This document shows, piece by piece, positions 1 through 9,714 of a stretch of 64,000 nt of DNA (the first letter of the stretch is position 1; each line of letters opens with the position of its first letter). Origin of the DNA: Asticcacaulis sp. EMRT-3. Lineage in GTDB: Bacteria > Pseudomonadota > Alphaproteobacteria > Caulobacterales > Caulobacteraceae. The position numbers and the translations under genes are program-made. The DNA lies in the NCBI RefSeq assembly GCF_030027245.1, contig NZ_JASERT010000001.1, positions 2,782,501 to 2,846,500 of the forward strand, read 5' to 3'. Under the pieces are notes generated by a model. The model was not told where the DNA came from, made no database searches, and saw only the letters and a list, made by a program, of their open reading frames with translations.

Positions 1-941
1 ATCGGGAAGACGCACGGCATCAGATTGAGCACCAGCCCGCCCAAAAATGCCAGGATCACGGCCCAGATCATGGGGGTTGAGATAGCGTTGGCTCTGCCTT
101 GTGACGTCGGCACGGAGATACCGGCGGGCAGGGAGCCCTTATGGGCGATCAAGCGGGCGGCGTGGCCATCCGGAAAGGCGATCACCAGAGTGGCCTGATC
201 GGGCAGGAGGCTGGCCGAACTGGGTAAGGTGATAGTGAAGCCCTGCGGCCCCGCGTTGATGGTCTGGGCGGCGGCGGGTGCGATCAGGCTTTCATCCTCG
301 CTGAACACATAGGCGCCCTGCGGATGCAGGAAGTCGTTGCGCAGGGCCACATCGCCGGGCAGGCTGAAACCCAGACGCAGTGTTCTGCCCGACAAGGCAT
401 AACTGGCAGGTGCCGAGATGGCGGTTGGCACGGACGGGGGCATGGCCGGGGCCGGGGCGGAAGGGTCGATTTTCAGCCGGGTTTTCAGATCGAAGCTGAC
501 GGGTTCGCATGTATCCTGACAGACAAGCGATTCGAGATGCACCGCAACCGGTACAACCGAACGCGCGGGCAGGTGGCTGTTATTATGCACGCGCACCCAG
601 GCGGTGACGGGCTGGTCAAAGCCATAGTTAACAACACCATCATAGACGAGCCTGCGCGGCGTTGGCCAGAGCGTGCTGCCCGCTTTCAGGCCCGCAGGCA
701 GGGTCAGGTCTATATCGGCGGCAAAACCGGTTTCGCCCGGATTGATCCAGTAGGTATGCCAGCCGGGATCGGGCGTCTGGGTGACGGCGATCAGGGCGTC
801 GCCGCCGGGTGCGATCAGGCCAGAACCGGCGTCAAGAGTGGCCGTCATATGGCCGGAACGCACTGCGGCCAGGCTCTGTGAAGGCAGAGATATGATCAGC
901 GCGGCCAATGTCAGACAGATACGGATTAACGAACGCACCAT
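1..941 (-). CDS. dsbD: Thiol:disulfide interchange protein DsbD family, N-terminal part (runs off window)
   Basis: Reading leftwards from the ATG at 941 there is a signal peptide (MVRSLIRICLTLAALIISLP), then a long periplasmic DsbD-like domain with a conserved Trp/Asn/Pro-rich stretch (GWHTYWINPGETG) and a CQDTCEP motif. A membrane segment (ILAFLGGLVLNLMPCVFP) begins near 70; the NLMPCVFP signature is typical of the DsbD/CcdA electron-transfer membrane domain. The protein should carry reducing equivalents from cytoplasmic thioredoxin across the membrane to periplasmic acceptors such as the TlpA-like protein at 3429-3905. The frame stays open to the window edge, so the membrane and C-terminal thioredoxin domains lie outside. 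Its start overlaps the original 3' end of apbE by about 16 bp, implying translational coupling. Confidence 0.85.
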   Translation of the reverse strand, partial: MVRSLIRICLTLAALIISLPSQSLAAVRSGHMTATLDAGSGLIAPGGDALIAVTQTPDPGWHTYWINPGETGFAADIDLTLPAGLKAGSTLWPTPRRLVYDGVVNYGFDQPVTAWVRVHNNSHLPARSVVPVAVHLESLVCQDTCEPVSFDLKTRLKIDPSAPAPAMPPSVPTAISAPASYALSGRTLRLGFSLPGDVALRNDFLHPQGAYVFSEDESLIAPAAAQTINAGPQGFTITLPSSASLLPDQATLVIAFPDGHAARLIAHKGSLPAGISVPTSQGRANAISTPMIWAVILAFLGGLVLNLMPCVFP

Positions 942-1824
942 GCACGTATGCCTTCTTTTTTAAGAAATTTTTCCGCCCGGCGACCATGAAGCATGGCCAG
1001 GGTGGACAAAAACCGGCCTCGATACAGGTCGGGGCGGCCACGGTCACCGAGCGCGGCGGATCCCTGACCGGCATGGCGGTGCGCGGATCGAGAATATGCG
1101 AATAGCGCACGCCGTCCCTGAGCAGGAAGCGTCGCGCATCGCCGCTGGTGGTCAGGGCACCATCGCTGATCTCCAGCCGTCCGGCCATAACCCCCGGCTG
1201 GATGGCGTCTTCGATGCCGATACGCCAGCGCTGGCCGTCCTTGCGCGGCCCTGTCACGCGCAGGTCACCGCCAAAATTGACAAGGCAGGCGGCGCGCATC
1301 TGGCGACGCAGGGCGTTGATCGCGCAATCGACGGCATATTCCTTGCCAAAACCGCCAAAGTCGATCTCCTGACCTTCCGCCAGAGTGATTTCCTCATCCT
1401 GCCAACGCACCTTGCCCCAACCGATCAGCGGGCGGACAGCGGCAATCTGGGCGCGCGACGGCACCTGATCGGAACCGTCAAACCGCCAGACACGACGCAG
1501 AACGCCGGAGGTAATATCAAACCTCCCGCCGCTCAGACGCCAGGCCCGGTCGGCGAAATCAAGCAGGGCACACGTCTCACGATCCACCCGGACAGGCTTG
1601 CCCGCCGCGCCATTGATGCAGCCGATCACGCTGTCGTCGCGGTATCGGCTATAGGTGCGCTCGATGCGCTGCGCCTCGATTTCAACCACCCGGCCAGCCT
1701 GTTCGGCCAGCCAGGCGTCGTCTGTCTCGATCCGCACTTCGCACGGCGAATGCATCGCATTGAAATGATAGACAAAGCCGTCTTCCAGGCACTCAAGGCT
1801 TTCGGCTGTCTCCATCTTCGTCAT
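926..1824 (-). pseudogene. apbE: FAD:protein FMN transferase ApbE, C-terminus frameshifted
   Basis: ApbE-family protein (flavin transferase that covalently links FMN to Ser/Thr in exported proteins). Family hallmarks are visible: DFGGFGKEYAVD, LVNFGGDLR, LTTSGDARRFLL and YSHILDPRTAMPV. The uninterrupted frame runs past the expected end to 832 because it shifts inside a five-T run (plus-strand A5 at 1008-1012). Before the run the frame reads TCIEAGF; the other frame then continues LSTLAMLHGRRAEKF and ends EGIRAWCVR with a TAA at 926-928, just where dsbD begins. One missing base in the homopolymer explains this. It is either a real inactivating or phase-variable indel or a sequencing error. The core catalytic domain upstream is intact. 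Confidence 0.8.
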
Positions 1825-1826
1825 GC

Positions 1827-3200
1827 TCAGTAGAAGGCGAAATTATAGCCGATAATGACGCTGGTGGCCTTGATGCCGGTGAACAGATTCTCCTGCTTCA
1901 GATCGCCAATGGCATAGGAGGGGTGCTGCGTGCCGGTTTGCTGGTAGCTGGCGGCGCGCAGATAAAGTTCGTCATTACCCAGCACCCGCATCCCGATCTT
2001 CAGGCCGATGGTCGTGGCGTTGAAGGCGCCCAGACGGCTATCTGAAGACGCATTGGCCGGCAGGGCCTGACCATCGATCAGATAGTCATGGAAGAAGTTG
2101 GCCTTGGTCTGGTGGTAATAGCGGACATTGGGCTCGACATAGAGACGCGACCCCAGAGGAATGCGCTCAGCCACCTCCAGCGTCTCGGCATTGATGCCCC
2201 AGCTATCGTGATAAAGCCGTGCCGATATATCGGCCACCGTGCCCCAAAGGGCCAGCTTATTGCCAAGATAGAGACTCTGGCGCACCCGCGATGACGGCCT
2301 GCTCTCATAGAGATACCGGACGGGCGCGCCTGTCGTGCCATCGACCACCGAGATGATGCGATAGGGATCGGTCTGATAGCCAGAGGTGTCGCCCAGCGAA
2401 TAGTTGAGCTGTACCAGCCAGTAGCGATTCATCACCTGGGTGACGCCCGCCACCATATCGACGACCGTTTTCTTGCGGTTGCCGCTTTTTACGCTACCGT
2501 TCATTTCAGTGAACGGTGTCGGCGTGCCCAGATAGGGCCTGGAGGTATCGGATTCGAGATTGAGGGCAATCGATGCCGTGGTGTTCTTGTCATTGAAATC
2601 ACGCGCATAGCCGATATTGGCCGACATCGAGCCGTAGTCGTGTTCAGTGGACAGCGCGCCGCCCAGGCTCAACCGGTCGCCATTGTCGAGCGTGCCGGTA
2701 TAGCCGAGATCAACGGCATAGCGCTGGTCGCGGAAGCCCGTATCGACGGGCAGGCTATTGGCGGCTGCCGTATATTGGCGCGCCTTTACGTTGGTGCCGG
2801 GTATAGGCACAAGCTGGCTGTTGCCAGACGCGCTGGTCACCGTGGTTTGCTGGCCCTGCGTCTTCGACGGGGTGATGAAGGTCTGCACACCGGTCCACGG
2901 GGCCGCGCCATTGGGGGTGGCTCCGGTCAGGGTGTCGGCGGTCAGTTTAACGTGCAGGCTGTCGCCGCTGTCGTCATTGAAAGTAACGCTGGTCACCGGC
3001 TCGATGGCCTTCACCCGCCCGCTAGCTTCCTGATAGAAGAGGATGGCGCTGTCCACCCGCGTCAGGTTGGCATCGGTTGAGGTGTCATCATTGATATTCT
3101 GACTGACATCCTGAGCATGGGTGCCTGCCGCAACGAACAAACCGGCTGTTATCAGGCCCAGTGCCGCTGTCAGTCGGCGTTTTTTTCTGTTCAGTTGCAT
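1827..3200 (-). CDS. DUF3570 outer-membrane beta-barrel-like protein with flavinylation-like motif
   Basis: 457 aa with a signal peptide (residues 1-30, cleavage after THAQ), an N-terminal region, then alternating aromatic/polar strands ending in YNFAFY, the C-terminal aromatic typical of outer-membrane barrels. The order and content match DUF3570. Residues 89-95 read DTLTGAT, which fits the D-x-x-[ST]-G-A-[ST] acceptor motif modified by ApbE; Thr95 would be the acceptor. The gene ends 2 bp before the apbE start and overlaps the DUF4266 gene by 10 bp, so TlpA-DUF4266-DUF3570-ApbE-DsbD are one operon. Family assignment is from sequence resemblance; the flavinylation idea is inference. Confidence 0.8.
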   Translation of the reverse strand: MQLNRKKRRLTAALGLITAGLFVAAGTHAQDVSQNINDDTSTDANLTRVDSAILFYQEASGRVKAIEPVTSVTFNDDSGDSLHVKLTADTLTGATPNGAAPWTGVQTFITPSKTQGQQTTVTSASGNSQLVPIPGTNVKARQYTAAANSLPVDTGFRDQRYAVDLGYTGTLDNGDRLSLGGALSTEHDYGSMSANIGYARDFNDKNTTASIALNLESDTSRPYLGTPTPFTEMNGSVKSGNRKKTVVDMVAGVTQVMNRYWLVQLNYSLGDTSGYQTDPYRIISVVDGTTGAPVRYLYESRPSSRVRQSLYLGNKLALWGTVADISARLYHDSWGINAETLEVAERIPLGSRLYVEPNVRYYHQTKANFFHDYLIDGQALPANASSDSRLGAFNATTIGLKIGMRVLGNDELYLRAASYQQTGTQHPSYAIGDLKQENLFTGIKATSVIIGYNFAFY

Positions 3201-3439
3201 CCGCAGCCGCCTCCGTCAAAGGTGCGGCCGCCCGAAGCGCCTTCCTTGGAAAAATAGATATGGTCGTCGGCTGCGGCGATCAGCGGATGGGTGACCGGCT
3301 GCATCGAACGGCGCGCCATCAGGTCGCGGTTCCAGGCCTTGGCACCAAGCGAGGAACAACCGCCCATAGAGGCAAAGGCACCCAGCAGCAGGCAGCCGCC
3401 CGCCGCCTGCGCGGCGATACGCATGAGTTTACTTTTCAT
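3191..3439 (-). CDS. DUF4266 small lipoprotein
   Basis: 82 aa from the ATG at 3439. There is a lipoprotein signal with lipobox SMGGC (Cys28), then SSLGAKAWNRDLMARRSM and a Cys-containing tail FDGGGCGCN. This architecture matches DUF4266, which is habitually found next to DUF3570 and ApbE genes. The longer frame upstream overlaps the thioredoxin gene and is not favoured. It overlaps the preceding gene by 11 bp and the following gene by 10 bp. The role is unknown; the terminal Gly-Cys motif could bind metal or take part in thiol redox chemistry with the neighbouring TlpA/DsbD proteins (inference). Confidence 0.8.
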   Translation of the reverse strand: MKSKLMRIAAQAAGGCLLLGAFASMGGCSSLGAKAWNRDLMARRSMQPVTHPLIAAADDHIYFSKEGASGGRTFDGGGCGCN

Positions 3440-3905
3440 CGAGAAGCTCCACGAGCTGGTCGTTATAGGCCGTGGTCTGTTCGGGGTGAAAACCCTTGTG
3501 GGTATAGCGTACGCGGCCATCGCGCCCGATCAGCAGGCTGGTCGGCATGTCGCTGACCCTGAAGCGCTGGGCCAGCTTGCCATCGGCGTCATAAACGACC
3601 TTCAGATCGCTGCCGACGCGCTTGAGAAAACTATCGGCGCGGTCGCGGCTGTGATCGACATTGACAGCCACGATCACCAGACCGTCTGATCCGTAGCGCG
3701 ATTTTAACTGCTCCATATAGGGGAAGGACTGCTCGCACGGATGGCACCACGAGGCCCAGAAGTCGAGATAGACGACCTTGCCCTTATAGGCGGACAGATC
3801 GAGCGGCGCGCCGGCCAGGGCCGGAAAGGCGCTGCCGAAGACAATCGCCCCCGCGGCGAGGGCTGTCCAGATGGACAGGCGCGGCATAGAAAATTTCAGG
3901 ACCAT
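3429..3905 (-). CDS. TlpA-like periplasmic thioredoxin
   Basis: 158 aa starting at the ATG at 3905, preceded by AGGGAG. It has a signal segment (SIWTALAAGAIVFGSAFPALA) and then a TlpA/ResA-type thioredoxin fold: KVVYLDFWASWCHPCEQSFP with catalytic CHPC, and the cis-Pro loop DMPTSLLIGRDG. It is likely a periplasmic thiol reductase supplied by DsbD and acting on partners made from the same operon. First gene of the leftward operon; the divergent gene at 4059 shares the 153-bp intergenic region, which should hold both promoters. Confidence 0.88.
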   Translation of the reverse strand: MVLKFSMPRLSIWTALAAGAIVFGSAFPALAGAPLDLSAYKGKVVYLDFWASWCHPCEQSFPYMEQLKSRYGSDGLVIVAVNVDHSRDRADSFLKRVGSDLKVVYDADGKLAQRFRVSDMPTSLLIGRDGRVRYTHKGFHPEQTTAYNDQLVELLDEK

Positions 3906-4058
3906 GATGTCTCCCTGACAAAGTCGGTTCAGGGGTGCGACACCGCGCAGGCACCGGGTTCGTACTTTTTGAAAGAAGGAAATTTTCATCTTTTCGTTAC
4001 GAACCGACGGGTCGGACGGTGTCAGTCGAACATGGGGCCATCATGGAGGATCGTCACC

Positions 4059-4592
4059 ATGAACTATCATCTGAACCGTCGCCATTTTCTCGGCGCCGCT
4101 CTGGTTTTGGCCTGTGCACCCCGTATTGCCCAGGCTTCACCGCTTAGCGCCGTGCCACAACCGGAAAAGGTCGGCACGGGCCGCCTGAATATAGTGATGA
4201 TGCCGATCCTCGATGTCACACTTTTCGCCCCTCAGGCCCACTGGCGTCCCGATGCCCCCTTCGCCTTGCAGGTGACCTTCCTGCGTCCCCTGCAAGGGCA
4301 CAAACTGGCCGGTCATGCGCTCGACGAGATGCGCCATATCGGGCTTGACGGCGATCCGCACCTGAACGTCTGGGGGCAAAAACTGTCTGCCGTCCTGCCC
4401 GATGTGACACGCGGCGATGTGCTGACTGGCGTGCGCGATGCGGCGGGCGGCACCAGTTTTTTCATGGGCGCGGAACGCCTTGGTCATTTTGCCGACCCAT
4501 CCTTTTCGGACGCCTTTTTCGGTATCTGCCTGAGCCCGCGCACCTCGCAACCGGCCTTGCGCCGCGAGGTGCTGGGGCTTGAGCGGGCCTAA
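4059..4592 (+). CDS. Chalcone isomerase-like periplasmic protein
   Basis: 177 aa. The start at 4059 is set by GGAGGA eight bases upstream; a longer open frame to 3741 lacks a site. A twin-arginine-like leader (RRHFLGAALVLACAPRIAQA) is followed by a domain resembling the bacterial chalcone-isomerase-like family: DVTLFAPQAHW, FALQVTFLRPLQG, DEMRHIG, PDVTRGDVLTGV, FFGICLSPRTSQPALR. Bacterial members are not plant-type enzymes and their substrate is unknown. It is divergent from the thioredoxin operon and convergent with the cytochrome-barrel gene (4-bp overlap of ends). Its position inside a redox cluster suggests an envelope role. Confidence 0.75.
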   Translation: MNYHLNRRHFLGAALVLACAPRIAQASPLSAVPQPEKVGTGRLNIVMMPILDVTLFAPQAHWRPDAPFALQVTFLRPLQGHKLAGHALDEMRHIGLDGDPHLNVWGQKLSAVLPDVTRGDVLTGVRDAAGGTSFFMGAERLGHFADPSFSDAFFGICLSPRTSQPALRREVLGLERA

Positions 4593-5920
4593 TAGGCGAA
4601 CCACAATCCGGTAAAGACTGTATTGTTATCCGAAGCCTTGCGCCCAGTGCCGTCATAGTTTTGTGACTGGCCATTGAACTTATCATAGGCCGTATATTGC
4701 ACGAAAACGCGGATATTGGCGTATGGATAGCCAATATCCCCAATCTTGCCAAATGGCGTGAAATCGACCTGGCTGATATAGCCGCTGCTGTCGGGTTTAC
4801 CGTTGGGACTGCCATACAATAGGGCATCAGCGCTGCCGCGGATGTCAAAGCGTCCGATGGTCAGTCCATACATGTTGTCATAGTAGTACGAAACATTGGC
4901 CTTGAAACTGTCCATGGTGTTCGTTGGGTTGGCGGATGCACCCAGCGCATAGGTCGCGCGCAGGCTCTGATGTTCATGCAGCATCGAAACATAGGCGGAC
5001 AGGCTGTGTTTGCCATCGGCTGAACTGACTTGCCAGGTGCCGTCTATCGCGGCATCACGAAACTGGTCGGCACCGGCGCTGCGGTCGTTGCCGGGATAGC
5101 GGCGGGCACCGAAGCCGTAGGTACCAATGGCGAGGTAGTGCGGGCCAAAATCGTGCTGTAGGGCAAACCGCCAATAGGAGGCGCCTCCATCCAGGTGATC
5201 ATTGCCACTGACATTACCATTGCCGAACGACTGCTGCAGACCGTCGCTGAGCGTATAATAGCGGGAATATTCGGCATAGACGAGATCGTTCCACAGGCCG
5301 TAAGCGCCGGCACCAACCACTTGTCCGCCTTGTCCGGCCATGAAGGAATCGGCATCGGGCGCAGGCGCCAGAGCTGAAGCCAGATACGGATAGCCCCAGG
5401 CCGGCGTGGTTTGCCACAGATCCTGCATGGAGGGATTGTTATTGACGCTGACGCCGTAGATCAGGCTTTGACCGGCCAGTGTGGTCATATTGGCATAACG
5501 GATATCGGTATTGTCGAGCGCCAGAGCCTTGCCATTCGGATCATAGGTGGCCTGCGTCATGATACCAATATGATCGGTCACCCGGCCGCCGTAGAACAGC
5601 GACACCTGATCGATGGTGGTATTGTTGTTGGGTTTGCCGACATCGGGGGAAACGACCGCCTTGGCCGTCTGTTCGTTCCCTCCGGCCACCATGGCCGAAA
5701 TGCCTTTCCAGAAAGCCTGTTTCTCACCCATCGTATAGCCATTGGCTTTGAACAAACGCCCCATTTTCGTCAGTTGCGGCCCGAAAGAACCGACATGACA
5801 CGAAGCGCAGGGCATACCGGTCTGTCGCGCAAAAGCCGGAATGGCGTTGGCAACCTGCGGAGACAGAAAGCCCAGCAACAGGGCTATGAAGGCGATAAAC
5901 CTGGCGGATCGGAATGTCAT
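4589..5920 (-). CDS. c-type cytochrome fused to an outer-membrane barrel-like domain
   Basis: 443 aa from the ATG at 5920 (AGGGG upstream; the frame extends further but lacks a site). A signal peptide ends near VANA, followed at once by a single heme site CASCH within GMPCASCHVGSFGPQLTK. The remaining roughly 380 residues are rich in alternating aromatic/polar strands (LIYGVSVNNNPS, DHLDGGASYWRFALQHDFG, VFVQYTAYDKF) and end FTGLWFAY, as in outer-membrane barrels. Such cytochrome/barrel single chains are known but poorly characterised. It lies 22 bp downstream of the small cytochrome c gene on the same strand, so the two are probably co-transcribed and may pass electrons to or through the outer membrane (inference). 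Confidence 0.75.
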   Translation of the reverse strand: MTFRSARFIAFIALLLGFLSPQVANAIPAFARQTGMPCASCHVGSFGPQLTKMGRLFKANGYTMGEKQAFWKGISAMVAGGNEQTAKAVVSPDVGKPNNNTTIDQVSLFYGGRVTDHIGIMTQATYDPNGKALALDNTDIRYANMTTLAGQSLIYGVSVNNNPSMQDLWQTTPAWGYPYLASALAPAPDADSFMAGQGGQVVGAGAYGLWNDLVYAEYSRYYTLSDGLQQSFGNGNVSGNDHLDGGASYWRFALQHDFGPHYLAIGTYGFGARRYPGNDRSAGADQFRDAAIDGTWQVSSADGKHSLSAYVSMLHEHQSLRATYALGASANPTNTMDSFKANVSYYYDNMYGLTIGRFDIRGSADALLYGSPNGKPDSSGYISQVDFTPFGKIGDIGYPYANIRVFVQYTAYDKFNGQSQNYDGTGRKASDNNTVFTGLWFAY

Positions 5921-5942
5921 GGCAAGCCCCTGCATGGAAAAG

Positions 5943-6410
5943 CTATTTGATCTTGGGTAAGGGCGCCGGACTGTCTGACAGAGTGCGCAGCCAGGCGATG
6001 ACATTGGCGCGATCCTGCGTTTTCTTGATACCGCCATAGGCCATGGCCGTGCCGGGCGCTTCTGACGGCGGGCTGTAAAGCCAGGTGTTCAGCGAGTCAT
6101 ATGACCATGTTTTGGCGGTTATTTTCTTGAAAGCGGCTGAATAATGGAAACCGGTCACCTGACCCACCGGGCGATTGACGATGTTCCATAGATTAGGCCC
6201 GATCCGCGTGGCGCCACCCTTATTGATCGTGTGGCAGGACATACAGATCCGGCCAGTTCTTTGTCCCGCCGTCGTGTCGGCGGTGGCCAGCAGGCTGTCC
6301 ACAGATTCGGCCGCAGGTTGCGCGGTCGCCATCGGTACACCGAGAATCAGGCTGCCTACACCTGCCAGAACAGCGCAGGAAAGGCTCAGGGAAAAACGAG
6401 GTGAGGCCAT
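5943..6410 (-). CDS. Class I c-type cytochrome
   Basis: 155 aa with signal peptide (cleavage near ATAQ). The heme site CMSCHT sits in GRICMSCHTINKGGATRIGP and a distal Met ligand in GTAMAYGGIKK, with the final helix RANVIAWLRTLSD. This is the mono-heme cytochrome c2/c550 layout. It is a soluble periplasmic electron carrier, first gene of a leftward pair with the cytochrome-barrel protein. An AT-rich intergenic region (6411-6630) separates it from the divergent cytochrome c' gene. Confidence 0.88.
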   Translation of the reverse strand: MASPRFSLSLSCAVLAGVGSLILGVPMATAQPAAESVDSLLATADTTAGQRTGRICMSCHTINKGGATRIGPNLWNIVNRPVGQVTGFHYSAAFKKITAKTWSYDSLNTWLYSPPSEAPGTAMAYGGIKKTQDRANVIAWLRTLSDSPAPLPKIK

Positions 6411-7785: not shown

Positions 7786-9561
7786 TCAGGCCGCCAGACG
7801 GGCCGCGTCCAGCACCTCATCTATGCTGCCGCGCGCCGTCACCCCCAGCACATGCCGGTTGTGCCACAAGGTGTAGAAGAGCAGGCTCCAGGCGGCTTGC
7901 GGATGACGCAAAGGTGCCGCGTAAATGCGCCGCACGGCGGCCTGAAGCGACAGTTCGGCAATGGCCGGATGGTTCAGCAGCAGCGGTTCGATGCGACTCT
8001 TGTACTGATCGATCCATTGCCCGACTGGCGGTATGAAGCCCTGTTTTTTCGACCAGGGATCGGAACCGGGCGCATTGCGCGCCACCCAGTCGCGCAGCAG
8101 CCATTTGCCCAGCCCGTTGCGCACCTTGAGCGTCTCCGGCAAATCATAGGCGAAGGGCGACAGCACGGGATCAAGAAAGGGCGTACGCCCCTCGATACCA
8201 TGCGCCATCAGGCAGCGATCCAGTTTCAGCAGCAGATTATTGGGCAGCCATTCTGCGCAATCGATCGCCTGCAAGGTTTGCATGGCGGAAATCGCGGGCA
8301 CGGATTCGGCTTTTTCACTCTGCGCCAGACCCGTGCGCCAGGCCGGCAGGCTGTCGGCGGGCATAAGTGACGAAAACACACCGCGTGTGCGGGTTTTTTG
8401 CCGCCACAGGCCAAAGAACCAGGCTGCGCGGCGATAGCGCCTGTATCCGCCGAACAGTTCATCCGCTCCGTCGCCGCTCAGTACCACCTTCAGGCCGTCT
8501 TTGCGTGCCGCCCTGGCCAGCAGGAACAGCGGCAGGGCCGAAGAATCGGCGGTCGGATCGTCAAGGGCAGACGCCAGATGGGGCGCGTGGTTGAAAAAGT
8601 CCGCTGCCGCCATATCGACACAGTGATGGTCGGCACCCGCTCCCCGGGCCAGGGCCTCGGCCACGGATCGCTCGTTTTTCGAACCCGCGCCGGGAAATGT
8701 GGCCGTCAAGGCCACGACAGGGCGTGAATCGAGGCGCGACATCACAGTCAGCAGGGCCGAGGAATCGATCCCGCCGGACAGGAACAGCCCCACAGGCGCA
8801 TCCGAGCGCATATGAAGACGCACGCTGTCCTGCAAATGCTGATCAAGCTGGCGATAGGCCGTTTCATAGCTCAGAGGCACAGGCCGGGTGGCGCGCCGGG
8901 TATGGGGTCTGCGGCGCTCCTGGTGAACAATGGCAGCATTGTCGATCACCAGTGTCTCACCGGGCAGCAAGCGTTGTATATCGGCAAACACGGTGGTTGT
9001 CCCGGTCGTAAACTGAAGCTGAAGCATTTCCGCCCTTACGCGCGGCACCAGGCTCCTGCCGGCCAGTCCGGCGGCAATCAGGGCCTGAGGTTCAGAAGCG
9101 AAGGCAAAGAAGGCCGGCGTCATCACATAGTAGAGCTGTTTAATACCATACGGGTCGCGGGCCAGAACCAGTGCCTGTTTGCGGGCGTCGAACAGGGCCA
9201 GGGCATACATTCCGCGAAGATGACGGGTGAAACCAAGCCCATATTTTTCATAAAGATGCAGAGCCGATTCACAGTCCGATCCGGACTTAAACCCGGCCTG
9301 TGGCAAACTTTCGCGTATATCGGGATCATTATAGATTTCGCCATTGGCGACAAGAACTGTACCATCATCCGCAATGAAGGGTTGCTGGCCATGGTCGATA
9401 TCGACAATGGCCAGCCGCGTATTGAGCAGCCCAACCGTGCCATGACAAAAAATCCCGGCACCGTCCGGACCGCGATGAACAAGAGCGGCCGCCATCTTTT
9501 TGAGAGTTCCGGAATCCGCAACCTGTCCGTCGCGCATCATAATACCGGCAATTCCACACAT
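7786..9561 (-). CDS. asnB: Asparagine synthetase (glutamine-hydrolysing)
   Basis: 591 aa when started at 9561, which exposes the required Cys2 nucleophile (MCGIAGIM). The N-terminal class II glutaminase domain carries NGEIYN. The C-terminal synthetase domain has the PP-loop SGGIDSSALL and LSGDGADELFGGYRRY. It converts aspartate and glutamine to asparagine, or amidates a sugar or peptide precursor in surface-polymer loci. The divergent and adjacent glycosyltransferases suggest a possible cell-surface role, but plain asparagine synthesis is equally likely. Confidence 0.9.
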   Translation of the reverse strand: MCGIAGIMMRDGQVADSGTLKKMAAALVHRGPDGAGIFCHGTVGLLNTRLAIVDIDHGQQPFIADDGTVLVANGEIYNDPDIRESLPQAGFKSGSDCESALHLYEKYGLGFTRHLRGMYALALFDARKQALVLARDPYGIKQLYYVMTPAFFAFASEPQALIAAGLAGRSLVPRVRAEMLQLQFTTGTTTVFADIQRLLPGETLVIDNAAIVHQERRRPHTRRATRPVPLSYETAYRQLDQHLQDSVRLHMRSDAPVGLFLSGGIDSSALLTVMSRLDSRPVVALTATFPGAGSKNERSVAEALARGAGADHHCVDMAAADFFNHAPHLASALDDPTADSSALPLFLLARAARKDGLKVVLSGDGADELFGGYRRYRRAAWFFGLWRQKTRTRGVFSSLMPADSLPAWRTGLAQSEKAESVPAISAMQTLQAIDCAEWLPNNLLLKLDRCLMAHGIEGRTPFLDPVLSPFAYDLPETLKVRNGLGKWLLRDWVARNAPGSDPWSKKQGFIPPVGQWIDQYKSRIEPLLLNHPAIAELSLQAAVRRIYAAPLRHPQAAWSLLFYTLWHNRHVLGVTARGSIDEVLDAARLAA

Positions 9562-9714
9562 GGATCGTCTCACACTCATAAGGTCTGCGTTATAAGACAC
9601 CGCTCATTGCCGAGACTCGTAACGAGTATGAAACATTTTTCGATGGTGCCACACATCTGACGGTGTCATGTCTTTACCAGGTCTGCGATCCTGGCCAGGC
9701 GTGACGGAAATGCA

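Follow-up and report, generated by a model that had tools for sequence, protein, structure and literature searches.

The closest described relative of the system analyzed here is the 'DsbD' type of flavinylation cluster, in which ApbE, the flavin adenine dinucleotide (FAD):protein flavin mononucleotide (FMN) transferase, is encoded together with DUF3570, a thioredoxin-like protein, DUF4266 and DsbD (Meheust et al. 2021 eLife, PMC8238504). We examined a system of this composition in a 64,000-nucleotide stretch of the Asticcacaulis sp. EMRT-3 genome, hereafter the window (NZ_JASERT010000001.1, positions 2,782,501 to 2,846,500). According to the parts of PMC8238504 covered here, DUF3570 from Chlorobium luteolum is flavinylated by its cognate ApbE at two sites; the constructs were co-expressed and signal-peptide-truncated, and DUF3570 was largely in the cell pellet. 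The authors proposed DsbD as the electron donor of a thioredoxin/flavin hybrid and redox cycling for the CXC of DUF4266, and they called the function uncertain. These parts describe no DUF3570 structure; the main text uses neither 'barrel' nor 'FecR', TonB appears once, and 'outer membrane' appears once, for the TonB receptors of the PepSY cluster type. Beyond this paper, we found no open-licence full text naming DUF3570 or DUF4266. In the portions considered, a structural survey (PMC11334425) mentions outer-membrane flavinylation sites in passing and shows other domains, and a review (PMC12052999) mentions neither these DUFs nor a barrel.

The window locus belongs to the published DsbD-type (DUF3570) kind. 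A DUF3570 protein with [ST]GA[ST], a neighboring ApbE, a DUF4266 protein with a C-terminal CXC, and a thioredoxin-like protein with DsbD are all present, and the gene set, the acceptor motif and the proposed entry of electrons through DsbD agree with the covered parts of PMC8238504. In contrast to the systems described there, the window protein has one acceptor motif instead of two, its thioredoxin is of the Redoxin/TlpA type and not PF13899, which sits in the window DsbD instead, and the signal-less ApbE seen here for DUF3570 is not discussed in those parts. As with the NqrC/RnfG and FMN_bind flavoproteins, we predict covalent FMN attached by ApbE to an exported protein; however, their ApbE is an exported lipoprotein, whereas here the ApbE lacks a signal peptide and its partner is a predicted outer-membrane barrel, and the cytosolic bacterial ApbE named in the same portions of the review serves a soluble fumarate reductase (PMC12052999). 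Another possible likeness is offered by the PepSY/FoxB/HiuB siderophore reductases of Caulobacter and Pseudomonas, which link redox release of chelated iron to a gene adjoining a TonB receptor, but those are inner-membrane proteins with predicted heme sites, and DUF3570 is not mentioned in the parts of PMC12424826 covered here. The gene set itself has been in print since 2021; our additions are the predicted flavin at the outer mouth, the signal-less ApbE and the regulatory link.

Organization of the DUF3570 gene set

All five genes lie on the minus strand and are transcribed in the order thioredoxin, DUF4266, DUF3570, apbE and dsbD. The TlpA/ResA-like thioredoxin, with a signal peptide and a WCHPC motif, is encoded at 3429..3905 (longest open reading frame (ORF) 3429-3989, likely start 3905) and matches Redoxin at 3e-22, its ResA subfamily match falling under the cut-off of that subfamily. 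It is followed by the DUF4266 lipoprotein, which ends in GGGCGCN (3191..3439; longest ORF 3191-3520, likely start 3439; PF14086, 2.4e-17), by DUF3570 (1827..3200; PF12094, E=5e-102) and by apbE (832..1824; PF02424, E=4e-63, profile positions 1-237 of 266). The gene of the membrane thiol-electron importer DsbD occupies 1..941 (ORF 3-941, with a PF11412 match) and continues past the window edge; the complete gene, at 2781384-2783441 of G000 C1 (6884-8941 of locus L035), encodes 685 residues with DsbD_N, DsbD_TM and Thioredoxin_7 matches. The ORFs and family matches thereby confirm a preliminary description of this DNA, made from the sequence alone, as to the five-gene set, the position of apbE directly downstream of the DUF3570 gene, the lipoprotein ending in GGGCGCN and the CHPC thioredoxin. 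At 3191-3200 the DUF4266 and DUF3570 genes overlap, so that the Cys-Asn-stop codons of the former also hold the start of the latter, and 55 of 68 DUF4266 ORFs overlap their DUF3570 ORF.

We compared 71 DUF3570 copies from 70 loci, among which four pairs are more than 94% identical. Where at least 1.5 kb was available on each side (59 copies), a thioredoxin gene lay within 3 kb in 57 and a DUF4266 gene within 3 kb in all 59; apbE lay within 1.5 kb in 49, and thioredoxin, DUF4266 and apbE occurred together in 47. DsbD was linked in 18 of the 59 within the flanking DNA covered. The systems occur in Proteobacteria, Verrucomicrobia and Myxococcota records, and the window DUF3570 and its A. taihuensis counterpart share 83% identity. 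Among 198 relatives, DUF3570 was found in 11 and ApbE in 84, and all 11 DUF3570 bearers also have ApbE. By profile search, the genome holds one ApbE and one DUF3570; for the published ApbE target classes FMN_bind and DUF2271, which this search covered, there was no match. In one genome, a 912-residue ORF with DUF3570 (L091 7890-10628, turned) is about twice the normal length.

A predicted outer-membrane barrel with an acceptor motif at its outer end

The AlphaFold2 model of the window DUF3570 is a 16-strand barrel (pLDDT 84.1, pTM 0.82), and so is that of a Verrucomicrobia homologue with 26% identity (pLDDT 88.0, pTM 0.80), counting long strands and taking shorter strands within long loops as loop. 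In both models, all loops longer than 5 residues lie on one side, and the motif stands where strand 3 ends on the outer side. The window barrel has outer loops of 4, 55, 2, 21, 29, 4, 28 and 19 residues and inner turns of 5, 2, 4, 2, 2, 4 and 5, an assignment that presumes both termini to be periplasmic and takes the orientation from the loop lengths. The even strand number and the short turns on one side, together with a C-terminal F, Y or W in 64 of the 71 copies, are those of an outer-membrane beta-barrel. Solved barrels align with the model, which speaks for the fold and not for the function; a profile search of solved structures gave no DUF3570 relative at E 0.001 and one match at E 0.87. 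At E 0.001 the window protein matches PF12094 alone, with no TonB plug domain.

The DTLTGAT string reported in the preliminary description at residues 89-95 is present (codons at 2916..2936, minus strand), and its aligned column shows that it is not a chance occurrence. In the 71 aligned copies, the D is kept in 69, the [ST] in 67, the G in 63, the A in 58 and the final [ST] in 70; as a whole, 47 copies have the strict motif in this column, 12 a relaxed form and 12 another sequence. The predicted FMN acceptor, Thr95, seems to face the lumen near the predicted outer mouth of the model, its facing having been read from the alternation of hydrophobicity along the strand, which gives a weak call on strand 2 and a modest one on strands 4 and 16. 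Conservation clusters in this region: columns above 3 bits number 18/39 in the outer third of the lumen, compared with 8/36 in the middle and 2/38 in the inner third, and are rare on the lipid face (1/36, 1/34 and 3/41 from outside to inside). In the 58 copies that have apbE within 1.5 kb, the motif is strict in 42, relaxed in 11 and otherwise in 5, and the glycine is retained in 57; of the 10 whose flanks are complete and hold no apbE within 1.5 kb, 4 are strict and 6 have the glycine replaced, 3 edge-limited copies being set aside in this comparison. As for the check proposed in the preliminary description, whether the motif tracks with a neighboring apbE, the glycine was thus kept in 57/58 with apbE and in 4/10 without; the comparison contains few independent events, because 9 of the 10 copies lacking a near apbE form one related group with a shared neighborhood. 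Between strands 3 and 4, [ST]GA[ST] occurs at least twice in 5 of the 71 copies, once in 48 and not at all in 18; among the 14 copies nearest the window, it occurs once in the window protein and 10 others and twice in three.

The proposal that DUF3570 is an FMN-bearing outer-membrane barrel, also made in the preliminary description, is supported by the flavinylated C. luteolum homologue in the covered parts of PMC8238504, by the barrel models with a lumen-facing motif, and by a lone genomic ApbE with neither an FMN_bind nor a DUF2271 target.

A separate kind of DUF3570 locus (L099, L100, L104 and L106-L111) combines thioredoxin, DUF4266 and DUF3570 with no adjacent apbE. Its neighbors here are TPR proteins and a large protein that carries two or three CxxCH and, in the one scanned, a hydrazine-synthase-alpha-like domain; the motif glycine is Ser or Asn in six of these loci.

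ApbE without a signal peptide

An in-frame stop lies 7 codons ahead of the ATG of the window apbE, and the protein runs nearly straight from its start into the catalytic domain, with no hydrophobic N-terminus, signal peptide or lipobox of the kind found in an exported lipoprotein. A signal-like start was likewise absent in 56 of the 57 adjacent ApbEs that have an N-terminal part, the exception being L033, which has a hydrophobic leader; this count sets aside 2 non-adjacent and 4 fragmentary ApbE ORFs and scores only the stretch before the domain. The check is a hydrophobicity heuristic, which, applied to the first 45 residues of the longest ORFs, flags 53 of 66 thioredoxins, 54 of 68 DUF4266 proteins and 53 of 71 DUF3570 proteins, and also 8 of 62 ApbEs, where that stretch takes in the catalytic domain. 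Because the adjacent ApbEs lack a signal peptide, FMN is probably attached to DUF3570 before export. The co-expression of truncated proteins, with DUF3570 mostly in the pellet, agrees with modification of an unfolded chain (PMC8238504, parts covered here). Tat export of DUF3570, a candidate way round the problem of a cytosolic ApbE, was rejected, since no [ST]RRx[FLIVM] was flagged in the 71 N-terminal stretches.

A conserved CGC tail on DUF4266

DUF3570 contains no cysteine in the window protein and none in 67 of the 71 copies. In the exported partners, conserved cysteines were seen as the thioredoxin pair and as two residues of the DUF4266 tail. This tail has GCGC in 68/68 and a terminal Asn in 67/68, and its last 13 residues are glycine-rich. 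We ruled out that the invariant GCN tail is a mere by-product of the overlap with the DUF3570 start: among the 13 of 68 non-overlapping cases, 12 end in GCGCN and one in GCGCY. The simplest reading of these sequences makes the tail a putative redox-active dithiol carried by a flexible arm with a lipid anchor, and the arm may reach the flavin.

A promoter-like element and a sigma/FecR/TonB-receptor cassette in the neighborhood

An element of the form TACGAACC-N11-CGGTGTC, which resembles the -35/-10 pair of an extracytoplasmic function (ECF) sigma factor, precedes the thioredoxin gene (3939..3964, minus strand) and, on the plus strand at 3998..4023, a divergent chalcone-isomerase-like gene; both are putative promoters. 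The same element at 9596-9621 (minus) lies 34 bp ahead of the start of an asparagine-synthase-like gene (7786-9561, likely start 9561), and in all three cases the element ends 33-35 bp before the likely gene start. Two further ECF-like elements (L035 2253-2278 and 6442-6467, both minus) flank a sigma-FecR-TonB receptor cassette; these sites, near the sigma gene and the 3' end of the TonB receptor, point away from or run antisense to those genes. Both have counterparts in L077, and the receptor 3'-end site also has one in L003, L003 and L077 being near-duplicates. The divergent gene (4059..4592, plus) encodes a small protein with a likely export signal, matches PF16036 (Chalcone_3) below the cut-off (E=4e-4), and is linked to the system by the element only.

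At no more than one mismatch, the element TACGAACC-N11-CGGTGTC occurs in four places in 3.3 Mb, all within 10 kb at this locus. The shorter pattern TACGA-N14-CGGTGTC matches 32 times across 25 genus genomes: 19 times in the six that bear DUF3570 and 13 times in the other 19, compared with 9 for a backward control. In the six, 17 of the 19 are no farther than about 8 kb from the DUF3570 gene, and the thioredoxin side has one in 6/6; since the pattern was drawn from the thioredoxin-side sites and the chalcone-side site of the window, 7 of these 17 owe their clustering in part to construction. For TACG-N15-CGGTGTC, no match was found in 1.53 million strand-bases of farther loci. At 2 mismatches, the long pattern has 9 matches in the genome against 10 for the backward control; therefore, the element can be judged only by its better matches and by how these cluster.

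Beyond dsbD, the window locus has ECF sigma, FecR and TonB receptor genes; genome-wide, FecR has four matches. In the 14 loci closest to the window, some of which end early, a related TonB receptor (30-89% identical) occurs in 9, FecR in 8 and sigma in 7. The cassette is convergent in Asticcacaulis, divergent in L076, and upstream and codirectional in L005, L079 and L080, in the last of which it lies 69 bp ahead of the thioredoxin ORF. TonB receptors are also found near the system in L010 (31 bp past apbE), L016 and L078, unrelated by BLAST to the receptor of the clade. Between the TonB receptor and dsbD lies a 66-residue gene with DHDGDND (L035 6629-6829, plus), with similar stretches in L003, L004 and L005. 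Directly upstream of the system, at 4589-6410 (minus), are genes for a c-type cytochrome and for a barrel-like protein that bears CxxCH and has no Pfam match; a similar pair stands beside a NapC/NirT-type cytochrome near the DUF3570 system of L105.

Discussion

Taken together, our data suggest a putative course for the DUF3570/DsbD-type flavinylation system of this Asticcacaulis-type bacterium, which as a whole we consider a little short of probable. Judging from the missing signal peptide, ApbE would act in the cytosol, where it would join one FMN to Thr95 of a DUF3570 chain not yet exported. DUF3570 would then leave by Sec and fold into its 16-strand barrel in the outer membrane; the FMN would lie in the outer third of the lumen if the model and the orientation given by its loop lengths are right. 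DsbD, the point of electron entry already proposed in print, would draw cytosolic electrons and reduce the periplasmic TlpA-like thioredoxin. The thioredoxin in turn would reduce the CGC dithiol that ends the glycine-rich arm of DUF4266; CXC cycling has been proposed in print, and the role of the arm is our suggestion. The arm may enter the barrel and reduce the FMN, and the flavin would reduce a substrate at the outer mouth. The nature of this substrate is the weakest step: because an ECF-sigma/FecR/TonB-receptor cassette adjoins the system in this clade, iron or another chelated nutrient is hinted at. The idea of electron exchange across the outer membrane, raised in the preliminary description, survives here as a possibility, in a sharper form.

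Several observations weigh against this course. The strict motif is missing from its column in 24 of the 71 DUF3570 copies, and the window protein, with one [ST]GA[ST] between strands 3 and 4, does not keep the second published site. Nine related loci with no adjacent apbE, two of which have an apbE 5.8 kb off, retain the barrel, the thioredoxin and the CGC tail, six of them with the motif glycine replaced; the core function may therefore do without the flavin. In the count of conserved columns, facing was set by the hydrophobicity of the same alignment, and conserved polar residues bias the calls toward the lumen. All 12 ApbEs taken from other places in genus and family genomes likewise have no signal-like start, and the trait is therefore not special to this system; moreover, the published survey began by dropping genes without a predicted signal peptide (PMC8238504, parts covered here). 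As for the substrate, FecR and sigma were found solely among the 14 loci nearest the window. Outside this clade, a survey of 110 ORFs chosen from 289 neighbors yielded no iron family in the 25 of 127 families listed, where response regulators (9) and histidine kinases (6) were commonest; this weakens the case for a role in iron beyond the clade. Finally, the sole ApbE gene of the genome leaves the frame of its relatives near window position 1030 and loses the conserved C-terminus, unless this is a sequencing error, so that the apbE ORF as read ends in a foreign tail.

This frame departure in a lone gene could mean that the system is decaying in the strain, with apbE broken and the barrel unmodified. 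However, an ApbE-like C-terminus persists in another frame (window ~1033 to 929), which over 35 residues retains 68% identity to A. taihuensis, as with a very recent change or a sequencing error, and the genus-mate assembly L077 also has a frame jump in apbE; relatives, A. taihuensis among them, have open copies, and we think decay unlikely. TlpA and DsbD families act in thiol maturation elsewhere, and the genes are adjacent here, which would suit the maturation set of the preliminary description, making or keeping cysteine bonds in a barrel that then carries flavin. This reading is unsupported, because the barrel of the window and of nearly all copies has no cysteine to mature, the conserved cysteines of the exported partners being confined to the thioredoxin pair and the DUF4266 tail. 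We consider it very improbable; that the thiol proteins supply electrons, as in the published DsbD proposal, is more likely and fits better.

CXC tails can also bind soft metals, and the GCGC tail is invariant even where apbE is not adjacent, which would suit a role in metal handling instead of electron delivery, the GGGCGCN tail binding copper or another metal and the barrel serving as its redox partner or exporter. The linkage of thioredoxin (57/59) and of DsbD (18/59 within the flanks covered) fits dithiol cycling instead, and we judge metal handling quite unlikely. A further alternative is a respiratory or extracellular conduit, in which the barrel would pass electrons to minerals, cytochromes or quinones outside the cell and have no part in nutrient uptake. 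Porin-cytochrome conduits of the MtrCAB type use multiheme cytochromes, with which electrons would move through an outer-membrane barrel; in the present system, a predicted covalent flavin and a dithiol tail take their place, and no multiheme protein or cytochrome family is found among the five genes. The cytochrome c and CxxCH barrel-like pair next to the window system, and the like pair with a NapC-type cytochrome in L105, speak for such a conduit. However, the pair occurs in 2 of the 70 loci, the window included, and the nearest loci carry FecR and TonB genes instead; a conduit of this kind is hence improbable in our view.

We favor electron delivery through a flavin-bearing DUF3570 barrel, of which a bolder version is a heme-free outer-membrane electron outlet: a cytosolic ApbE would load FMN on the unfolded chain, the flavin would pass Sec and the folding machinery and end in the outer vestibule of the 16-strand barrel, and a lipid-anchored, glycine-rich Cys-Gly-Cys-Asn arm would extend up the lumen and reduce it from the periplasmic side. 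In this full form we hold it to be doubtful. Should loading precede export and the flavin indeed lie at the outer mouth, electrons would have a heme-free route to the cell surface, and a large cofactor would have crossed Sec while attached to an unfolded chain. As to what switches the system on, the ECF-like element specific to this locus and the TonB cassette offer a first clue.

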